From contig JASGMM010000017.1 of assembly GCA_030156435.1 (NCBI GenBank), positions 1-35,268 on the forward strand: 35,268 nucleotides of DNA. Reading direction: 5' to 3'. Positions 4,997 through 30,513 of the stretch are shown here, in pieces. The notes beneath the pieces are model-generated. The model saw nothing but the letters and a program-made list of their open reading frames with translations, ran no database searches and had not been told where the DNA came from. Within the stretch, counting starts at the first letter, position 1; each line of letters starts with the position of its first letter. A program made the position numbers and the translations under genes. The DNA comes from Clostridiales bacterium. Lineage in GTDB: Bacteria > Bacillota > Clostridia > Mahellales > Mahellaceae.

Positions 4997-5085
4997 GGAG
5001 AGATGTCCGAGTGGTTTATGGAGCTGGTCTTGAAAACCAGTGATACCGAAAGGTACCGGGGGTTCGAATCCCTCTCTCTCCGCCA
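4997..5085 (+). tRNA. tRNA-Ser (anticodon UGA)
   Basis: The cloverleaf closes fully: acceptor GGAGAGA with TCTCTCC, anticodon stem CTGGT/ACCAG around loop CTTGAAA (anticodon TGA at 5031-5033), a long class II variable arm with TACC-GAAA-GGTA, and T loop TTCGAAT at 5063-5069. Discriminator G and encoded CCA follow. The long variable arm confirms serine. It reads UCA and, by wobble, other UCN codons. Confidence 0.97.
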
Positions 5086-5096
5086 TATCGAATCGT

Positions 5097-5189
5097 GGAG
5101 AAGTACCCAAGTTTGGTCGAAGGGGCGCCCCTGCTAAGGGCGTAGGTCGGGAAACTGGCGCGAGGGTTCGAATCCCTCCTTCTCCGCCA
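5097..5189 (+). tRNA. tRNA-Ser (anticodon GCU)
   Basis: Acceptor GGAGAAG pairs with CTTCTCC, anticodon stem CGCCC/GGGCG holds loop CTGCTAA (anticodon GCT at 5133-5135), a long variable arm and a TTCGAAT T loop follow, then discriminator G and encoded CCA. It reads AGC and AGU. Only 11 bases separate it from the first tRNA, so both are probably cut from one precursor made from the promoter at 4938. Confidence 0.97.
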
Positions 5190-21860: not shown

Positions 21861-23456
21861 ATGACTGATAAAAATATGGGTTCTGCCGGTAGGGCTGCTA
21901 GAGCTGCCGCTATGATAATGATCTTCACGCTTATAAGCAAATTGCTTGGATTTGGCAGGGAGATGGCCATAGCGGCGCGCTTTGGCGCTACTATGCAAAC
22001 CGATGCATATAAGATGGGGCAGACCATACCGATTGTGCTGTTGTCTAGCGTGGCAGCTGCTCTTAGCACCACCTTCATACCAGTGCTTACCGAATATATA
22101 CATAAAAAAAGCCCGCAGGAAACCAATCGCTATGTAAGCAACGTATTCAATGTGGTTATACTGATATGCCTGGCTTTGACAGGAGCAGGTATCGTATTTG
22201 CACCGACATTGGTAAGGATTGTGGCCCCCGGTTTTAGCGGCGAGGTGTTTGACCTTACGGTAACGCTCAGCCGCATAATGTTTCCTCTGGTTATATTCAA
22301 CGCCCTTGCGGCGCTTGCGACCGGTTATTTACAGGCGCATCAGCAGTTTGCTGTGCCCGCTATGGTAGGCATACCTTTCAATATTGTCATAATAGGGCAA
22401 CTCATGTTTTTCAGCGGCTGGGGCATATACGGATTGGCGGTAGCCACCGTGCTCGCAGTAGTGGCGCAGTTGTTTATCCAGTGGCCTACGGTGTTTAAAT
22501 TAGGTTATAAATATAGCTTGACATTGGACTTCAAGGATCCGGGTTTGCAGAAGGTATTTGCTTTAGTCCTACCCGTATTACTAGGTGCTATGGCAGGTCA
22601 GATAAATACGTTAGTAGACCGCATGCTGGCATCTGGTTTGACTGAAGGCAGCGTGTCGGCTCTTGATTTCGGCAATCGTGTCAACGGCATTGTGTTAGGC
22701 ATATTTGTATCGGCTATAACGACTGTATTGTATCCGACGCTATCCAGCCTGTCGGTGCGTCGCGATGTCGAACGTTTCAAGAGAACGCTCAATATAGGCA
22801 TACGCGTTATAATAATGCTCACGTTGCCCATGATGACTGGTCTGATAATACTGCGCTACCCCATTATACAGATGTTGTTTGAACGCGGTGCTTTTGATGC
22901 TAAAGCTACTAATATGACGGCGACGGCGTTGCTCTTTTATTCGATAGGTCTCGTTGCTCTGAGCATAAGGGATCTTACCAGCCGAGCTTTCTATGCTATG
23001 CAGGATACGCGCACGCCTACTATAAACGGAATGATATCGGTGGCTATAAATGTAGGCTTAAACCTTATACTGGTGCGTTTTATGGGGTTGGGAGGCCTTG
23101 CGCTGGCCACATCTATAGCTGCTATCATAACATCAGTACGCCTTATAATGCAGATGAGGAAAAAAATCGGAGGGATGAACGGCAGGAGTATAGCCGTAAG
23201 CTTTGTGAAGCTGGGCATAGCATCGGCTGTCATGGGATTGTCTGTTTATTTTATAGATAATATGTTGGCTGGTATAATAACGGGGAGCAACTTTACCGCG
23301 CAGGCGATGCGCGTTGCTATAGATATAATAAGCGGTGCATTGATATATGCTATTATGGCTGTTTTGCTTAAGGTTGAAGAGCTAAAGATAGGGTGGAATA
23401 TGATAAAGCAACGCATAAAGCGTGGAGGCGCCGGCTCGGACATAGGGACGACATAA
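21861..23456 (+). CDS. murJ: Lipid II flippase MurJ
   Basis: This 531-residue inner-membrane protein should move the cell-wall precursor lipid II across the membrane. It has about 14 hydrophobic segments and the MurJ/MviN patterns RAARAAAMIMIFTLISKLLG near the start, FGATMQTDAYKMGQTIP, and YSIGLVALSIRDLTSRAFYA with MQDTRTP near residues 355-385. The C-terminal tail is basic and cytoplasmic. The spacing of 12 bases after fprA suggests one transcript, although no functional link is obvious. A weak hairpin lies between it and the converging gene. Confidence 0.93.
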   Translation: MTDKNMGSAGRAARAAAMIMIFTLISKLLGFGREMAIAARFGATMQTDAYKMGQTIPIVLLSSVAAALSTTFIPVLTEYIHKKSPQETNRYVSNVFNVVILICLALTGAGIVFAPTLVRIVAPGFSGEVFDLTVTLSRIMFPLVIFNALAALATGYLQAHQQFAVPAMVGIPFNIVIIGQLMFFSGWGIYGLAVATVLAVVAQLFIQWPTVFKLGYKYSLTLDFKDPGLQKVFALVLPVLLGAMAGQINTLVDRMLASGLTEGSVSALDFGNRVNGIVLGIFVSAITTVLYPTLSSLSVRRDVERFKRTLNIGIRVIIMLTLPMMTGLIILRYPIIQMLFERGAFDAKATNMTATALLFYSIGLVALSIRDLTSRAFYAMQDTRTPTINGMISVAINVGLNLILVRFMGLGGLALATSIAAIITSVRLIMQMRKKIGGMNGRSIAVSFVKLGIASAVMGLSVYFIDNMLAGIITGSNFTAQAMRVAIDIISGALIYAIMAVLLKVEELKIGWNMIKQRIKRGGAGSDIGTT

Positions 23457-23472: not shown

Positions 23473-23491
23473 GGGCAGGTCAAGCCTGCCC
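23473..23491. terminator. Weak convergent hairpin after murJ
   Basis: GGGCAGG and CCTGCCC form a 7-bp stem with a five-base loop, overlapping the stop codon of the converging GT-GH130 gene. There is no T-run on either side, so termination is uncertain. Confidence 0.4.
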
Positions 23492-26400
23492 TATCAGATC
23501 TCCTACGCGCCCGGTAGCGACGCATAATACAGTATCAGCGGCCCCATAATATACGATTATTTCATCATTTTCGTCTAGCACATCTTTTTGTTCCATTGGT
23601 ACCGCACCGCAAGTGAATACCACATTGGGCACCCAGCTTTTACCTTTTTCACCCACCTCATATTCAGTTTCGGGTGACAATACAGGATTAGGGGAGCGAT
23701 ACAATATTCGGCCAGGGTCGTCGAGATCCACCAACATCGTTCCCAACCGATAAACCAGATGGCTGTCGATGCCGTGGTATATCATCAGCCACCCGTATTT
23801 TGTCTTTATGGGCTGGCTGCCAGCGCCTATCTTACGCGCATCCCACATGAGACCCGAGCGGGGTCCCATTATTATGCGGTGATCCTCGCGTGGCCACGGG
23901 CATTCAAGCGATGGCGTATATGATACCCATATACTCGGCTCGGTTCGGTGATATATAGGATATCGGCCGTTTATTTTTTCTGGCACTATTACAGCGTCTT
24001 TATCCGGAAAAGAGGGGAAAGCCATGCCATGGCGCTGCCATTTGTCGAAATGTCTTCCTATGAAGTCGTCGATGCTTATAGAGGCTACTGCTATCTGAGC
24101 TATAATACCGTCAAACGCTGTATAGGTCATATATATGCGCTCGCCTACTATAACGAGGCGAGGGTCCTCGCACCCGCGGCGTTCCTCTGCCATCATCGGT
24201 GCGAATACAGGATCAGCTAACCTCTCTATCACATTAAAGCCATCTGTTATAGCCAGACCTAGCCGCGATATGCCATCTTTGCCCACGGCGCGGTATAAAA
24301 TATAGACGCGATTATCCATGCGCAACGCGGCAGCGTTCAGTGTATAACGGGATTCCCACCAGCTCTCGGCTATCGGAGCTATTATGGGATTGCCTTCGTA
24401 TCGGCGTAGTGGTTTGGCCGTCGATGACGTTCTTATAGTGGGGGATACAATATCATCTTCTATATTGTCCATATAGAACAATTGTTGGGCTAAATCATCA
24501 TAAGCCTTGCCTTGCTGCATCAGATCTATGGCCTCTTGCAGTATGACCGATGTATCCATACCGAGAGCTAAACATATCCTTTCAAGCAACTTGCGCGCGA
24601 AAGCGTTTCTCTCGACATGAATGGACATAGGCGATGGAATGCCTTTTCCACCCTTAAAACTATAGCTGGCCCAGCTCCATGCCGAGCACGGCATAAATAC
24701 ACCATCAGGCATAGTAATACCTAGCCGATAGCCAGCAGCCATGTGCCTTAATATCTCGACTTGTGTTGTGTCGGCCATATTGCCGGCTATGGAATTTATA
24801 GCATCGGCTACAGCCTCCTGATGCCAATCTTCCATTATATTGTAAGCAGAGAACATTTCCTTGCCCCAATGGCCGCTTATGGAATTTACTACTTTGGTCC
24901 CAAAGCCATGGCGTTGAGCAGTGAAATCAGACCATATGACGGATAGATGTTCGGCTTCGGCTATATGCTTGGCTATGCGTGTAAAATACCTGAGGCTCGG
25001 TAAACGGCCGCCTATACCTTTGGGTAAAGGATGCACAATGATCCGTCCGGTCAGTTTATCCAAAGCGGTATATTTCAAAGAGGTAAAATCCTCTGCTCTT
25101 AAAGCTATAAACCTTAAATCGCCCCATTGCATATATTCGGGACGACCGTTCTGCTTAAACCAGCTTATCAATTGTGCGCGCAAGTCATCTTCAGTCAGCA
25201 CGGCCATAGCTAGAGCATCATCAGGGTCAAGGATGTCTAATAGCTCGGACAGGCTGGAACAGCCGTTTAACAACATAAGGTTTGCTGGTGGAAAGGTTTC
25301 CAGTATCATTTGCGCTGCCTCGGGCTTTAATGCAAGGACTTTGCCGTGTGGGAAAATGGAAGATATGCTATCTAGATACTGCTGCATTCCCGATATATTA
25401 TCCAATGCGCCTGGCAATAGATCCGAAAGCAGCGTCTCGGCAGAATCCATAAATTGGGATATAGCTTGGCCTACTTGTTCGGAGCTGGCCTGCTGTAATA
25501 TGCCCAGGCCGTCGTATACCCATTTGTTGAATTTATCTACATAGCATTGGAGCAGATCGTTGTATATGCTTATGGTATTGACGCTATGCCCCGGGCGATC
25601 GCTTACTTCGTGAGGGAGCAGTATAGGCACATGCGGTATGAATTCCATATAGCTTATCTTTGGCAGCAGCGGCAAAGCGCGGCTCTGCATATCCTCCCAC
25701 CCTCTTAGAAAGTCTTCTCTATATACTACGAAAGAATCGATATGTTGTTGCATGATTCCATCTGTTGTTTCTGGGGTGACAGGCGTTAAACGATAGGTTA
25801 AAACCGATATATAGCCTTTGTAGAGAGCCAAAAATGCTGAAATTATATCATCTGTCGATATATCTCCTGGATAACAATACGATATCAGCATGTGGTAGGT
25901 TAAGCGAGCCCACAATTCCTCATCCCATTCAAGATCGACATCTTGTTCTGGCTGGGAAAAACGCTCCAGCTGATCGAGAACTTTTTCCGGCAGTATATCG
26001 GATAAAAGATTGTAAAATTGTTGAAAATCCGATTTAAATGCTGACATCATGTCTATTGGCTTTGATAGGACACTGCTTTGGATTTCACCTCTATATGTGC
26101 CGTGTGTATCAGGCCATTTTAAGAAGGGTTGACGTTTGCTCCAAAAAGGTTCATCCTGCTTTATGCGCTCGAAAAAGGATTTCACTATATCGTGAAATAC
26201 TATATCGCTTTTGCCGGCCGAATGTTGATGAGGTTTGGGGCCCAATATTATACGGCATATATTTTGTTGCGTGCTTATTTCCAGACATGCCATAAATACA
26301 TCTATACCATAACCACCCACGCTAGCTTCCCAATGGCGGTTCATTTGCTCTGCAGCCTCTTCGACTACGTCAGATGTGATCGCCCATATGCCGCTGATCG

Positions 26401-26950
26401 GGTCATCCAGCCTGTATCCATAAATAGATGCTAACAATGGGCTTACTATGCAGTGTGCTATCGGGTTATCCAGAAAATGATTTTCGAAAGAGGCTAATGA
26501 TACACTGTACGGCCCATTATATATAGGGTCTAGCATTTTATGTATCCATTGTTGATCCATGCCGTATGTTTGGTGCTCGTCGGTGCATATTATATCGGCT
26601 TCCAGCATCAATACATCGGCATGAAGATTTCGGGCTATTTCGAGTATGGCTCTTGTGCTCCACCCTTTGCCATTGACGCCGTTTGGCATAAGAAACGTTG
26701 TTATAGGGATATTGTTGCCGCCTATGCTGTTTATTGCATCGATAACGCATTGGCCAGCCGGATCGCCGGCACATATTATGGCTGCCTTTATGTTGCGGGG
26801 ATATGATTCGATACCCTTTATTACATTATCTATGATGGGCTTGATGAGGTCGCATTCGTTATAAAACGGTATACCGATTACGAGATTGATAGCCCCCTTG
26901 GATTTGAGAACCTCTATCGGAGCAGTTATGGTACCATAAAAATCATCCAT
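23480..26950 (-). CDS. Glycosyltransferase-GH130 phosphorylase fusion protein
   Basis: This 1156-residue cytoplasmic protein joins two sugar enzymes. Residues ~20-280 look like a GT-A glycosyltransferase: VIGIPFYNECDLI, NGKGWSTRAILE and an acidic metal site LEADI (Glu117, Asp119), nearest in feel to mannosylglycerate or glucosylglycerate synthases. Residues ~815-1156 are a GH130-type glycoside phosphorylase, with RYEGNPIIAP, YILYRAVGKD, the GCEDPRL motif (Asp929 probably the family's general acid), MWDARKIGAG, GWLMIYHG and IVYYGAADT. GH130 enzymes split beta-linked mannosides with phosphate. Residues ~300-800 are an unrecognised mostly helical region. AGGAGG precedes the ATG. It is divergent from a GT4/ManC operon through overlapping promoters, pointing to a mannosyl sugar made from GDP-mannose and recovered by phosphorolysis. 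The exact substrate is unknown. Confidence 0.8.
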   Translation of the reverse strand: MDDFYGTITAPIEVLKSKGAINLVIGIPFYNECDLIKPIIDNVIKGIESYPRNIKAAIICAGDPAGQCVIDAINSIGGNNIPITTFLMPNGVNGKGWSTRAILEIARNLHADVLMLEADIICTDEHQTYGMDQQWIHKMLDPIYNGPYSVSLASFENHFLDNPIAHCIVSPLLASIYGYRLDDPISGIWAITSDVVEEAAEQMNRHWEASVGGYGIDVFMACLEISTQQNICRIILGPKPHQHSAGKSDIVFHDIVKSFFERIKQDEPFWSKRQPFLKWPDTHGTYRGEIQSSVLSKPIDMMSAFKSDFQQFYNLLSDILPEKVLDQLERFSQPEQDVDLEWDEELWARLTYHMLISYCYPGDISTDDIISAFLALYKGYISVLTYRLTPVTPETTDGIMQQHIDSFVVYREDFLRGWEDMQSRALPLLPKISYMEFIPHVPILLPHEVSDRPGHSVNTISIYNDLLQCYVDKFNKWVYDGLGILQQASSEQVGQAISQFMDSAETLLSDLLPGALDNISGMQQYLDSISSIFPHGKVLALKPEAAQMILETFPPANLMLLNGCSSLSELLDILDPDDALAMAVLTEDDLRAQLISWFKQNGRPEYMQWGDLRFIALRAEDFTSLKYTALDKLTGRIIVHPLPKGIGGRLPSLRYFTRIAKHIAEAEHLSVIWSDFTAQRHGFGTKVVNSISGHWGKEMFSAYNIMEDWHQEAVADAINSIAGNMADTTQVEILRHMAAGYRLGITMPDGVFMPCSAWSWASYSFKGGKGIPSPMSIHVERNAFARKLLERICLALGMDTSVILQEAIDLMQQGKAYDDLAQQLFYMDNIEDDIVSPTIRTSSTAKPLRRYEGNPIIAPIAESWWESRYTLNAAALRMDNRVYILYRAVGKDGISRLGLAITDGFNVIERLADPVFAPMMAEERRGCEDPRLVIVGERIYMTYTAFDGIIAQIAVASISIDDFIGRHFDKWQRHGMAFPSFPDKDAVIVPEKINGRYPIYHRTEPSIWVSYTPSLECPWPREDHRIIMGPRSGLMWDARKIGAGSQPIKTKYGWLMIYHGIDSHLVYRLGTMLVDLDDPGRILYRSPNPVLSPETEYEVGEKGKSWVPNVVFTCGAVPMEQKDVLDENDEIIVYYGAADTVLCVATGRVGDLIGQA

Positions 26951-26990
26951 ATTTTAAACCTCCTGAAAGCAAATACGATATTTTGTTAAA

Positions 26991-27013
26991 ATTACGTAAA
27001 TCATATGCGTAAT
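26991..27013. promoter_or_regulatory. Imperfect palindrome, possible operator
   Basis: ATTACGTA, seven bases, then TGCGTAAT form a 7-of-8 inverted repeat. It lies just downstream of the predicted minus-strand start near 27021, where a bound repressor could block the GT-GH130 gene. Confidence 0.4.
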
Positions 27014-27015
27014 TA

Positions 27016-27044
27016 TTGACATAAGTAATTATATACTATATAAT
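27016..27044 (+). promoter_or_regulatory. Consensus promoter of the GT4-manC operon
   Basis: TTGACA (27016-27021), exactly 17 bases, then TATAAT (27039-27044) is a perfect sigma-A promoter. Transcription should begin near 27051, about 80 bases before the GT4 gene. Confidence 0.85.
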
Positions 27045-27053
27045 TACTTATGT
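27019..27053. repeat. Perfect 35-bp palindrome over both divergent promoters
   Basis: Seventeen-base arms (ACATAAGTAATTATATA and its exact reverse complement) flank a single C at 27036. It covers both predicted -10 boxes and parts of both -35 boxes. A palindrome of this length is a strong candidate operator, though an AT-rich cruciform is possible. Confidence 0.85.
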
Positions 27054-27056
27054 AAA
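27028..27056 (-). promoter_or_regulatory. Promoter of the GT-GH130 gene, overlapping the opposite promoter
   Basis: On the minus strand, TTTACA (27056-27051), 17 bases, then TATAAT (27033-27028). Transcription should begin near 27021. It occupies the same DNA as the plus-strand promoter at 27016-27044. Confidence 0.7.
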
Positions 27057-27131
27057 CATGAATTGCTCATTATTTTATCATACCGTTTGCTAACCGATAA
27101 AATATAAAACTACAGAGGGGTGGTGTTTGTT

Positions 27132-28298
27132 ATGCACGAATTGGCTTTTATAAGTACTTTTCCGCCGCGCAAATGTGGCATAGCAACGTTCACAGCAGAT
27201 GTGGTAAAATACATAGAAAAGGCTGGTCAATGGAAATGCCGGGTGGTTGCTATAGATGATGGCATAGAGCATTATGCTTATAGCGATCAGGTATGGTTTC
27301 GCATAAATCAATTTAATAAAAGGGATTATATAAAAGCTGCACGGCATATAAACAACAGCAGTATAGATGCCGTTATGATAGAACACGAATACGGTATATT
27401 CGGTGGTAGCGATGGGCAATATATACTGGAATTGACAAGATTGCTGAATAAGCCCTTTGCGTTAACGTGCCATACTGTGTTGAGCAGCCCTACTATATCT
27501 CAGCGCAGTATATTAAAACATTTATGCCGTCAGGCTACAGCAGTCGTTGTTATGACCGAGCGAGCCGGCAATATTTTGAGCAGCGTTTATGATGTGGATA
27601 GTGAAAAAATAAAGGTTATACCCCACGGTATACCGGTTTTTAGAGCCGTTAAGGCTGAAGATGTAAAAAAGAAATATAAAGTAGGCGGCAGAAGGGTTGT
27701 GTCTACGTTCGGCCTGGTGAGCCCTGGCAAAGGCTTGGAATATGCCATACGGGCCATGAATATAGTGGCTAACAGGTTCCCGGATGCTGTTTATCTTGTA
27801 ATGGGCCAGACCCATCCCATGCTTAAGAGAAAATCAGGGGAGACCTATAGGGAGAGCCTTATAGAGTTGGTTCAAAATCTGGGCTTGAATAAACATGTGC
27901 GTTTTGTAAACTATTTTTTGAGCTTGCGTGAATTGGGCGACTATCTTGCTGCTACAGACGTATATATTACGCCATATCCTGGTAAAGAGCAGGCGGTCAG
28001 CGGCACGTTGTCCTATGCTCTCGGGGCAGGCAAGGCCATTGTTTCAACGCCATATGCCTACGCCATCGACCTTTTGGCCGACGACAGAGGAATATTGGTG
28101 CCATTTAACGATGTTCGAGCCATGGCCAATGCTATATGTAAGCTTTTGGCTGATGATGCATTGCGCCACAGGCTGGAGCGCAGAGCAATGATGTATGGAG
28201 AGCATATGCAGTGGCCGACTGTGGGGAGAAACTATAGCGAGCTAATGTCTTATATAGCATCTTCCGATAATACAAATATATTAGATAAGGAGGCCTAG
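27132..28298 (+). CDS. GT4-family glycosyltransferase
   Basis: This 388-residue cytoplasmic protein is a GT-B fold retaining glycosyltransferase of the GT4 (glycosyl transferases group 1) type, which moves a sugar from a nucleotide donor. The N-terminal half starts LAFISTFPPRKCGIATFTAD, with the glycine-rich acceptor loop. The C-terminal half has VIPHGIPVF, FGLVSPGKGLEYAIRAM, an ATDVYITPYPGKEQAVSGTL donor site and GAGKAIVSTPY. The usual second glutamate of the donor motif is replaced (SYALGAG). The ATG at 27132 follows AGGGGTG; in-frame GTGs at 27120 and 27123 overlap it. Its neighbours make GDP-mannose, so a mannosyltransferase is likely but not proven. The next gene starts three bases after its stop. 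Confidence 0.88.
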   Translation: MHELAFISTFPPRKCGIATFTADVVKYIEKAGQWKCRVVAIDDGIEHYAYSDQVWFRINQFNKRDYIKAARHINNSSIDAVMIEHEYGIFGGSDGQYILELTRLLNKPFALTCHTVLSSPTISQRSILKHLCRQATAVVVMTERAGNILSSVYDVDSEKIKVIPHGIPVFRAVKAEDVKKKYKVGGRRVVSTFGLVSPGKGLEYAIRAMNIVANRFPDAVYLVMGQTHPMLKRKSGETYRESLIELVQNLGLNKHVRFVNYFLSLRELGDYLAATDVYITPYPGKEQAVSGTLSYALGAGKAIVSTPYAYAIDLLADDRGILVPFNDVRAMANAICKLLADDALRHRLERRAMMYGEHMQWPTVGRNYSELMSYIASSDNTNILDKEA

Positions 28299-28301
28299 CT
28301 T

Positions 28302-29390
28302 ATGGTGGATACTATTAAATTGGATCACGTTTACCGCATGACCGATGATACGGGTATGTTGCAGCATAGCCGTTATTCCATACCGGACAGAAACCATGGT
28401 TACTCTACCGATGATAACAGCCGTGCGCTTATCATGGCGCTGGCATTGGCGGACATTACTGCATCGAGCGATCCTATAATATCGCATTCTCAAATGGCAT
28501 TGGCCGAGACTTATCTTGGATTTATGCAGCATGCCCAGCGTGCTGACGGCTGGTGGCGCAATTTTATGGATTATTCGCGCCGCTTCATAGACGACAATGT
28601 ATCTCAGGATTGTTACGGGCGCTGCATGTTGGCGTGCAGCTATGCTACAGGCCGGTCTATATTCGGCATAAGCGATATTGCGTTTGATATGTTCCAGAAA
28701 GGTTTAGAGCGTATAGATGATGTAAAGTCGCCCAGAGCCATGGCCTATACAGCCTTGGCGATAGTGAGGTATGCACATTATTCCGGCTGGGATGAGCGTC
28801 TAAAAGCCTATGCTTTACGGTTAGCCCGCGCTTTGTGCCGTTTATATAATGTACACGATCGCGGCGGTTGGCATTGGTTTGAGGACTATATAACGTACTG
28901 CAACGGCATATTGCCTCATGCCCTGATAGCGGTAGGCGATGCATTGAATGATAAAGAGATCCTAAGGGTTGGCATTGACAGCTTGATGTTTTTGATAGAC
29001 AGCCTTACTTCTGAAGGTTATCTTGATATAGTAGGAAATAACGGTTGGTGGCTTAAAGGCGGTCAAAAGGCTTTATACGACCAGCAATGCGTAGATGCGG
29101 TATCCACGCTCTGGGCCTGTGTGGAGGCCTATGATACCACGGATCAAGAACTGTTCCGTGATACTGCAAAGCTATGTTGGGATTGGTTTTGGGGGCATAA
29201 TCGCTCTGGCATGACTTTATATGATCCCGAGACCGGTGGATGCTATGATGGGCTTATGCGCTTGGGCATAAATAAAAATCAAGGCGCAGAATCGATCATA
29301 TCGTTCCTTTTGTCTTACGTGGGAGCGATGCATCTAGAATTAGAGCAATTGCCAAAAGTTACTATTTCTAATGGATATATAATAAGGTAG
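28302..29390 (+). CDS. Uncharacterised (alpha/alpha)-barrel-like protein of the mannosyl locus
   Basis: I do not recognise a named family with certainty. The 362-residue protein has no signal peptide and is rich in repeated helical pairs with aromatic motifs, the pattern of six-hairpin glycosidase-like folds. Notable segments are SRYSIPDRNHGYSTDDNSRA near residues 24-43, DGWWRNFMDYSRRF, the GGWHWFEDYITYCNG stretch, YDQQCVDAVSTLW and TGGCYDGL with NKNQGAES near the end. Paired acidic residues next to aromatic ones (DD at 39-40, WFED) could be catalytic. AAGGAGG overlaps the end of the GT4 gene and the start lies three bases after it, so the two proteins are made together. A role as hydrolase, phosphorylase or epimerase on the product sugar is inference. 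Confidence 0.6.
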   Translation: MVDTIKLDHVYRMTDDTGMLQHSRYSIPDRNHGYSTDDNSRALIMALALADITASSDPIISHSQMALAETYLGFMQHAQRADGWWRNFMDYSRRFIDDNVSQDCYGRCMLACSYATGRSIFGISDIAFDMFQKGLERIDDVKSPRAMAYTALAIVRYAHYSGWDERLKAYALRLARALCRLYNVHDRGGWHWFEDYITYCNGILPHALIAVGDALNDKEILRVGIDSLMFLIDSLTSEGYLDIVGNNGWWLKGGQKALYDQQCVDAVSTLWACVEAYDTTDQELFRDTAKLCWDWFWGHNRSGMTLYDPETGGCYDGLMRLGINKNQGAESIISFLLSYVGAMHLELEQLPKVTISNGYIIR

Positions 29391-29433
29391 ATAAAGATAT
29401 AATATATAATAAAGAATTGGAGGTGTATATGTG

Positions 29434-30513
29434 ATGCTTGCTGCTGTTATAATGGCTGGAGGTAAAGGCGAAAGGTTTTGGCCCAAAAGCAGGATTAAGC
29501 TACCCAAGCAGCTATTGAAGCTCACCGGCGAGGATACCATGATACAGTCCACTGTAAAGCGCATAAGCCGTATAGTGGATTATGATAACATATATATAGT
29601 TACCAACCCGGATTATGCCTCCATAATAAGTAATCAGCTGCCTGAAGTACCGACCGGCAACATACTAGTAGAACCTATGTCTAGAAATACTGCGGCATGT
29701 ATAGGCTTGGCAGCGTTACATATAGAGAAACGCTGCGAGGAAGATGCTGTCATGATGGTCCTTCCGTCGGATCATATGATAAGGGACGAAGACGAATATA
29801 TAAGGGTATTGGAGAAAGCTGCGCAAGTGGCTCAGCACAATACCAATATAGTTACTATAGGTATAAAGCCGGATCACCCTGAGACCGGTTACGGTTATAT
29901 AAAGATGGGTCAAAGGGTTACAGCCCGCGGCATGGAACCGGTACACGAGGTAGAAGCTTTTGTAGAAAAACCGGACAAAGAAACCGCTGAGAAATATCTT
30001 GAAACAGGTCAATACCTGTGGAACAGCGGTATGTTTCTTTGGAAGGTATCTACCATCATGACAAATATAAAGATCCATATGCCTAAGTTATACAAAGCCC
30101 TGAGTATCATACGTCAGGCTATAGATTCCGATGATGCAGAAAGCGTATTGTATAAGGAATATGAAAAGCTGGACAGCATATCTATAGACTATGGCATAAT
30201 GGAGAAAGCCGATTCAGTATATGTTATACCGGCAGACTTCGGGTGGGACGATGTCGGCAGTTGGACGGCTTTGGAACGCATTGAAGAACCTGATGAAAAT
30301 GGTAACATCATCAAAGGCAATATACTCAGCGTGGATACGAAAAAGTGCATTATACAGGGTGGCAACAATAAGCTGCTAGCGCTTTTAGGTTTAGAGAACC
30401 TCATAGTGGTAGATACCGATGATGTTACACTAATATGTCCAAAAGACAGAGCGCAGGATATAAAGAAACTCCTTCAGGAAATACGCGAAAGACAGTTGAC
30501 CGATTATCTATAA
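29434..30513 (+). CDS. manC: Mannose-1-phosphate guanylyltransferase (GDP-mannose pyrophosphorylase)
   Basis: This 359-residue enzyme makes GDP-mannose from mannose 1-phosphate and GTP. It shows the nucleotidyltransferase signature MAGGKGERFWPKS, VEPMSRNTAACIGLAAL, MVLPSDHMI, the HPETGYGYI motif, FVEKPD, LWNSGMFLWK and DFGWDDVGSW. The length shows a monofunctional enzyme without the phosphomannose isomerase domain of long ManC proteins. An ATG at 29434 and a GTG at 29431 are both possible after GGAGGTG. It lies 43 bases after the preceding gene and supplies the likely donor for the locus. It ends in a strong terminator. Confidence 0.94.
   Translation: MLAAVIMAGGKGERFWPKSRIKLPKQLLKLTGEDTMIQSTVKRISRIVDYDNIYIVTNPDYASIISNQLPEVPTGNILVEPMSRNTAACIGLAALHIEKRCEEDAVMMVLPSDHMIRDEDEYIRVLEKAAQVAQHNTNIVTIGIKPDHPETGYGYIKMGQRVTARGMEPVHEVEAFVEKPDKETAEKYLETGQYLWNSGMFLWKVSTIMTNIKIHMPKLYKALSIIRQAIDSDDAESVLYKEYEKLDSISIDYGIMEKADSVYVIPADFGWDDVGSWTALERIEEPDENGNIIKGNILSVDTKKCIIQGGNNKLLALLGLENLIVVDTDDVTLICPKDRAQDIKKLLQEIRERQLTDYL

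Follow-up and report, generated by a model that had tools for sequence, protein, structure and literature searches.

The window, a 35,268-nucleotide stretch of a Mahellaceae contig, encodes a protein in which a mannosylglycerate-synthase-like glycosyltransferase domain and a GH130 domain are joined in one chain, beside genes for a GT4 glycosyltransferase, a toroid-fold protein, and a ManC-type enzyme. We propose, with reasonable though far from full confidence, that this locus synthesizes an endogenous cytoplasmic mannoside and recovers it by phosphorolysis. A protein that would both build and recycle a mannose compound on one chain, in a conserved genomic setting, suggests that this compound is one not yet described; the open-access literature yielded no described GT–GH130 fusion and no bacterial mannogen. 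The preliminary description had listed a GT4 glycosyltransferase, a helical-barrel protein, and a GDP-mannose pyrophosphorylase beside the fusion, and all four genes were found in place:

23480-26950, minus strand: fusion ORF, 1156 aa, with GT-A, helical middle, and GH130 parts
25661-26950, minus strand: fusion residues 1-430, mannosylglycerate-synthase-like GT-A domain (Foldseek on the AlphaFold2 model, motif table)
24410-25660, minus strand: fusion residues 431-847, conserved, mostly helical middle domain (AlphaFold2 secondary structure, alignment)
23480-24409, minus strand: fusion residues 848-1156, GH130 five-bladed propeller of predicted phosphorylase type (Pfam, PDB, invariant residues)
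27016-27056, between the divergent arms: near-perfect palindrome of 41 bp (20-nt arms, 95%, 1-nt gap)
27120-28298, plus strand: GT4 glycosyltransferase, PimA/MshA-like (Pfam PF13692, PF00534, and PF13439)
28302-29390, plus strand: protein with a predicted (alpha/alpha)6 toroid (six-hairpin) fold (AlphaFold2, pLDDT 94.4)
29431-30513, plus strand: ManC-type mannose-1-phosphate guanylyltransferase (GDP-mannose pyrophosphorylase; PF00483, E = 2.3e-48; PF22640, E = 2.4e-19)

The fusion is no assembly artefact, since an uninterrupted reading frame is found in each of the three Mahella genomes as well as in relatives. With the AlphaFold model of the whole protein (pLDDT 86.5, pTM 0.73), Foldseek retrieved, in this order, GH130 structures, the mannosylglycerate synthase (MGS) of Rhodothermus, and mycobacterial GpgS. 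The earlier picture of a GT-A–GH130 fusion stands as regards the fusion itself but needed refinement, in that the GT is of the MGS/GpgS kind and there is a large unrecognized middle domain. No Pfam family reached threshold within the first 840 residues. The middle domain (residues 431-847), with a mean column identity of 54% among 37 homologues, had no relative in Pfam or PDB sequence searches.

For the N-terminal domain of the window protein, the Pfam match to Glycos_transf_2 (E = 0.065) fell below the cut-offs, and weak GT2 matches were obtained for 22 of 39 members searched as single sequences, the best at 5e-4. Foldseek with the AlphaFold2 model matched the MGS structure 2bo7 (E = 1.9e-12, TM-score 0.74 by target length), whose GT-A arrangement the domain has, as well as MGS 2y4j and, at 3e-8, GpgS 4dec. 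These matches bear out the GT-A-like N end of the preliminary description, which had named the lack of any GT fold there as an outcome that would count against it. Enzymes of the MGS/GpgS kind are retaining and glycosylate glycerate or phosphoglycerate. The window domain had no match to the curated families Pfam MGS_GT and NCBIfam PRK13915 and is not assigned to either, and the best PRK13915 match among 39 fused relatives was 1.1e-5. Standalone homologues of the domain reached 7.8e-13 and 1.2e-16 against PRK13915 (GpgS), and one scored 1e-4 against MGS_GT (22.3 bits, cut-off 27). Free-standing MGS/GpgS-like homologues lie at loci L109, L110, L111, and L112, the copies at L111 and L112 adjoining LacI-type regulators.

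The functional residues of MGS and GpgS, and their spacing, have been described (PMC2581804). By motif and spacing, E11, K76, D100-A-D102, and D192 of MGS correspond to E32, K95, E117-A-D119, and D217 of the fusion, all of which the window protein holds. Residues 1-430 share the fold of MGS (GT78) and GpgS/MpgS (GT81) and have apparent counterparts of their network of E, K, D/E-x-D, and D/E, but the fusion is ~15% identical to these enzymes, carries two further domains, and has EAD where they have DAD or DSD.

Not every fusion's GT half is to be taken as active, because the metal-site D119 is kept in 37 of 47 fusions and the preceding acid, E117, in 26 of 47. The metal motif is replaced by SAN, SAK, or SPE in part of family f93, and nearly every GT motif is gone at locus L139. 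Judging from these replacements, some members of the family may have an inactive GT half, and the fusion is perhaps not bifunctional everywhere. A more radical reading would make the GT half a pseudo-enzyme, a decayed MGS-like domain that now serves as a scaffold or binds glycan to target the GH130 phosphorylase, and the invariance of the GH130 residues in 47 of 47 fusions while several clades have replaced the GT metal motif speaks for it, as does the state of L139. We nevertheless regard this reading as unlikely, given that G-x-P-F-x-x-E, G-[KR]-G, EAD, and YG[IV]D are retained in the window protein and across most families, and that a purely dead domain would be expected to decay everywhere in a fusion of single origin that spans many families. 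Loci in which the GT metal motif is replaced (SAN, SAK, SPE, and others) and the GH130 residues are invariant (L096, L097, L098, L099, L104, L105, L152, L154, and L139) possibly form a series of decaying GT domains.

The C-terminal domain was recognized as GH130, as had been claimed before, by Pfam (PF04041, residues 871-1151, E = 1.9e-48, 165 bits against a cut-off of 26), by matches to PDB entries 7fip and 9fj8, and by Foldseek (Teth514_1788, E = 5e-25), and it has the five-bladed propeller of that family. Residues D929, K984, R1002, K1040, and H1059 are invariant in all 47 aligned fusions. According to rules set out by Cuskin et al. (PMC4599007), a catalytic Asp together with three basic phosphate-binding residues separates GH130 phosphorylases from hydrolases, and a lysine indicates beta-1,2 specificity. 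The fusions have the catalytic D929 and the bases R1002, K1040, and H1059, the choice of these three being our own mapping, and K984 (47 of 47), where beta-1,4 enzymes have Arg; the correspondence between Lys199 of BT3780 and the Teth lysine was drawn by exclusion rather than from a direct alignment. E928, which precedes the catalytic Asp, is likewise invariant, and beta-1,4 enzymes have Tyr there. Because the invariant residues fit these rules, we predict that the fusion GH130 is a phosphorylase with beta-1,2 specificity, a hydrolase being disfavoured; the signatures K984 and E928 are in keeping with the beta-1,2-type action that had been suggested. Against the NCBIfam beta-1,2-mannobiose phosphorylase equivalog NF052550, the domain scored 239.6 bits (curated cut-off 450), and it is related to those proteins but outside that equivalog. 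Elsewhere in the genome of the window, and without linkage to it, lie two more GH130 genes (G000:C83:19576-20514 and G000:C21:545-1360), one of the beta-1,4-mannooligosaccharide type and one of the beta-1,2-oligomannan type.

The fusion gene and the arm encoding GT4, toroid, and ManC diverge from the palindrome at 27016-27056, which reads TTGACA-17-TATAAT on the plus strand (12 of 12) and TTTACA-17-TATAAT on the minus strand (11 of 12). Two predicted divergent sigma-70-type promoters fully overlap inside it, and both remaining Mahella genomes retain most of the palindrome and of the two promoters. The two arms thus appear to share one symmetric predicted promoter that would split initiation between them, because two polymerases cannot occupy the palindrome simultaneously.

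In PDB searches the GT4 protein matched PimA and a GT4 glycosyltransferase at 2e-9, and an MshA model also matches; its start is probably ATG 27132, behind AGAGGGGTGG, rather than GTG 27120. The ManC protein comprises NTP_transferase and ManC beta-helix domains and scored 1.4e-107 against TIGR01479 (360 bits, cut-off 373). The toroid protein between them has no Pfam family, and the best Foldseek match was to 7tem, a structure without assigned function, followed by the 2-epimerase fold. The N-acylglucosamine/cellobiose 2-epimerase family carries a pair of catalytic histidines in its (alpha/alpha)6 barrel. In a 37-member alignment of the toroid, 31 residues are invariant (including D37, D38, N39, R41, D103, D260, D316, and E330) and no His is among them. 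We therefore rejected a 2-epimerase assignment despite the similar fold, and the invariant Asp, Asn, Arg, and Glu residues argue for other sugar chemistry. To GH76 mannanases there were only partial matches (E 0.05-0.2), and that assignment was set aside. The toroid probably works together with GT4, as the two are fused in about nine other loci.

Among 398 genomes from the phylum, a profile search identified 48 with the fusion, along with four further matches that consist of the N-domain alone. This result overturned our initial impression of a Mahella-only protein, which had come from a single-protein search of the class, where the fusion occurs solely in Mahella (3 of 291 genomes), and from a degenerate-pattern scan of contigs. 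About a dozen bacterial families carry the fusion. Its GH130 domains form one clade (support 100/99) that excludes Teth514_1788/1789 and the unfused GH130 proteins beside GT4–toroid pairs, in a tree where some long branches meet and outer placements are less sure. The simplest reading is a single fusion event, after which the gene was inherited or transferred, and a hint of transfer is that Mahella is its sole carrier in the class. The locus is kept whole in both other Mahella genomes (Mahella australiensis and Mahella sp.), where the fusion is ~90% identical. Each also encodes a second fusion of 1175 aa, 43% identical, next to GT4 but without toroid or ManC (fusion plus GT4 at L010 9160-13950 and L012 5881-10671); no copy of it turned up in the draft genome that contains the window.

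The neighbours of the fusion, whose being unlinked in all relatives had been named as evidence against the proposal, are linked to it widely. Within 8 kb of the fusion at 52 loci outside Mahella, we counted GT4 at 33, toroid at 33, phosphomannomutase at 21, and ManC at 17, all lower bounds because the ORF caller drops overlapping antisense frames. The toroid link holds in 9 of 11 families; in families f99 and f192 the fusion has neither GT4 nor toroid nearby. Across whole genomes the toroid is found in 43 of 48 that carry the fusion and 47 of 350 others (uncorrected for phylogeny). Nine GT4–toroid loci without the fusion have a free GH130 alongside. At L114 (4368-6791), beside GT4–toroid, a nucleotidyltransferase, and phosphomannomutase, a Pfam-identified GH94 phosphorylase replaces GH130, and at L116 (8251-10650) an ORF of like size occupies the same slot; a phosphorylase is thus a recurring partner of GT4–toroid even where its family differs. 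Another recurring neighbour of the fusion is a 408-aa protein (L139, L141, L145, L146, L147, L151, and L107; e.g., L146:11989-13215) that had no Pfam or NCBIfam match and whose start looks, by eye, like a glycosidase.

The composition of these clusters bears on whether the locus might instead assemble an exported or surface mannose polysaccharide or glycolipid, with GH130 serving in editing or recycling. GDP-mannose, a PimA-like GT4, and a MurJ gene convergent with the fusion gene (21861-23456), which could hint at a lipid-linked route, would suit such a role. We consider it improbable: the recurring partners at the 52 loci are GT4, toroid, phosphomannomutase, and ManC, no initiating phosphoglycosyltransferase, polymerase, or exporter is prominent among them, and none of these loci, all outside Mahella, showed a MurJ gene next to the fusion.

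Closer to the present locus is a cluster in Thermoanaerobacter described by Chiku et al. (PMC4264767), in which two GH130 enzymes, the beta-1,2-oligomannan and beta-1,2-mannobiose phosphorylases Teth514_1788/1789, are encoded together with ManC, GT4, an ABC transporter, and a GH5 enzyme. Both clusters place a beta-1,2-type GH130 beside ManC, GT4, and hypothetical genes and allow a loop from Man-1-P to GDP-mannose, but the Teth514_1788/1789 enzymes are free-standing and no GT-A fusion is described for them. The salvage proposed there, in which GH130 degrades imported beta-mannosides and the resulting Man-1-P is converted to GDP-mannose, might be extended to the fusion locus, and mannose does support growth of Mahella australiensis. 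We doubt this extension. Among the four genes of the Mahella locus and their immediate neighbours there is no transporter and no extracellular or secreted hydrolase, as the preliminary description had noted, and salvage leaves the fused MGS-like GT unexplained. Two carriers of the fusion, moreover, do not live on sugars, which makes mannan uptake unlikely: Syntrophothermus lipocalidus (G388) lives on fatty acids or crotonate, and Thermacetogenium phaeum (G358) lives on acetate and alcohols and is unable to degrade glucose. The locus of the former contains the fusion, phosphomannomutase, GT4-type genes, ManC, and toroid; that of the latter contains the fusion, phosphomannomutase, and GT4-type genes, with a toroid match beside the fusion (genome 2931620-2932588). 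The fusion, its beta-1,2-type signatures, the linkage, the lack of a transporter or secreted hydrolase, and the non-sugar carriers together favour synthesis with intracellular recycling over uptake of plant mannan, as had been proposed from the window alone.

In the synthesis-and-recovery model, ManC would convert Man-1-P to GDP-mannose, which the MGS-like domain and GT4 would use to build the mannoside, the donor being suggested by the neighbouring genes. The MGS-like domain would most likely start the mannoside by transferring alpha-mannose to a small glycerate-type acceptor, and the toroid, probably in partnership with GT4, would act on that same glycan. With phosphate, the GH130 domain would reversibly remove beta-1,2-mannosyl ends as alpha-Man-1-P, the substrate of ManC, and running backwards it would add them. 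Both gene arms would be driven from the one symmetric promoter. Since GH130 would yield alpha-Man-1-P directly, recovery of mannose would need no ATP for sugar phosphorylation, and this ATP-free return would suit syntrophs living near the energetic limit; Syntrophothermus, Thermacetogenium, and Mahella are the organisms in which to look for the mannoside. Our analysis shows the folds, the conserved catalytic residues, the conserved gene linkage, and the promoter sequence; the donor, the acceptor, the bond made, the toroid role, and the physiology are inferred. A counterpoint to the model is the retaining mechanism of MGS-type and GT4 enzymes: in the Mahella locus, the one obvious candidate for making the beta-mannosyl bond that GH130 cleaves would be GH130 itself running backwards.

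A narrower and distinctly speculative version, to which we give a small chance, would make the fusion a bacterial mannogen synthase-phosphorylase, in which the MGS-like domain primes and GH130 elongates or shortens a beta-1,2-mannan reserve. GH130 would then be the polymerase, in the manner of the Leishmania GT108 enzymes, because the Mahella locus has no obvious inverting transferase. In the mannogen mannosyltransferase-phosphorylases of Leishmania (GT108), one protein both synthesizes and phosphorolyses beta-1,2-mannan (PMC8950772). By description, they share with the fusion a GH130-like propeller acting on beta-1,2-mannan and the placing of making and phosphorolysis on one protein, but they do both with the propeller fold, whereas the Mahella fusion has a separate GT-A domain. 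In its logic the system also resembles the glycogen operon (GlgC-GlgA-GlgP-Pgm), where a single reserve sugar is served by a nucleotidyltransferase, a transferase, a phosphorylase, and a mutase; here the sugar is mannose, the enzyme families are others, and the reserve or protectant role suggested earlier is hypothetical. Glycogen synthase (GlgA, E below 1e-60) occurs in 15 of 48 fusion genomes and 205 of 350 others, a comparison confounded by phylogeny. We rejected the idea that the fusion replaces glycogen, as the depletion of GlgA is partial and Mahella itself has GlgA. Elsewhere in the window, Rfam identified two adjacent tRNA genes at 4997-5186.
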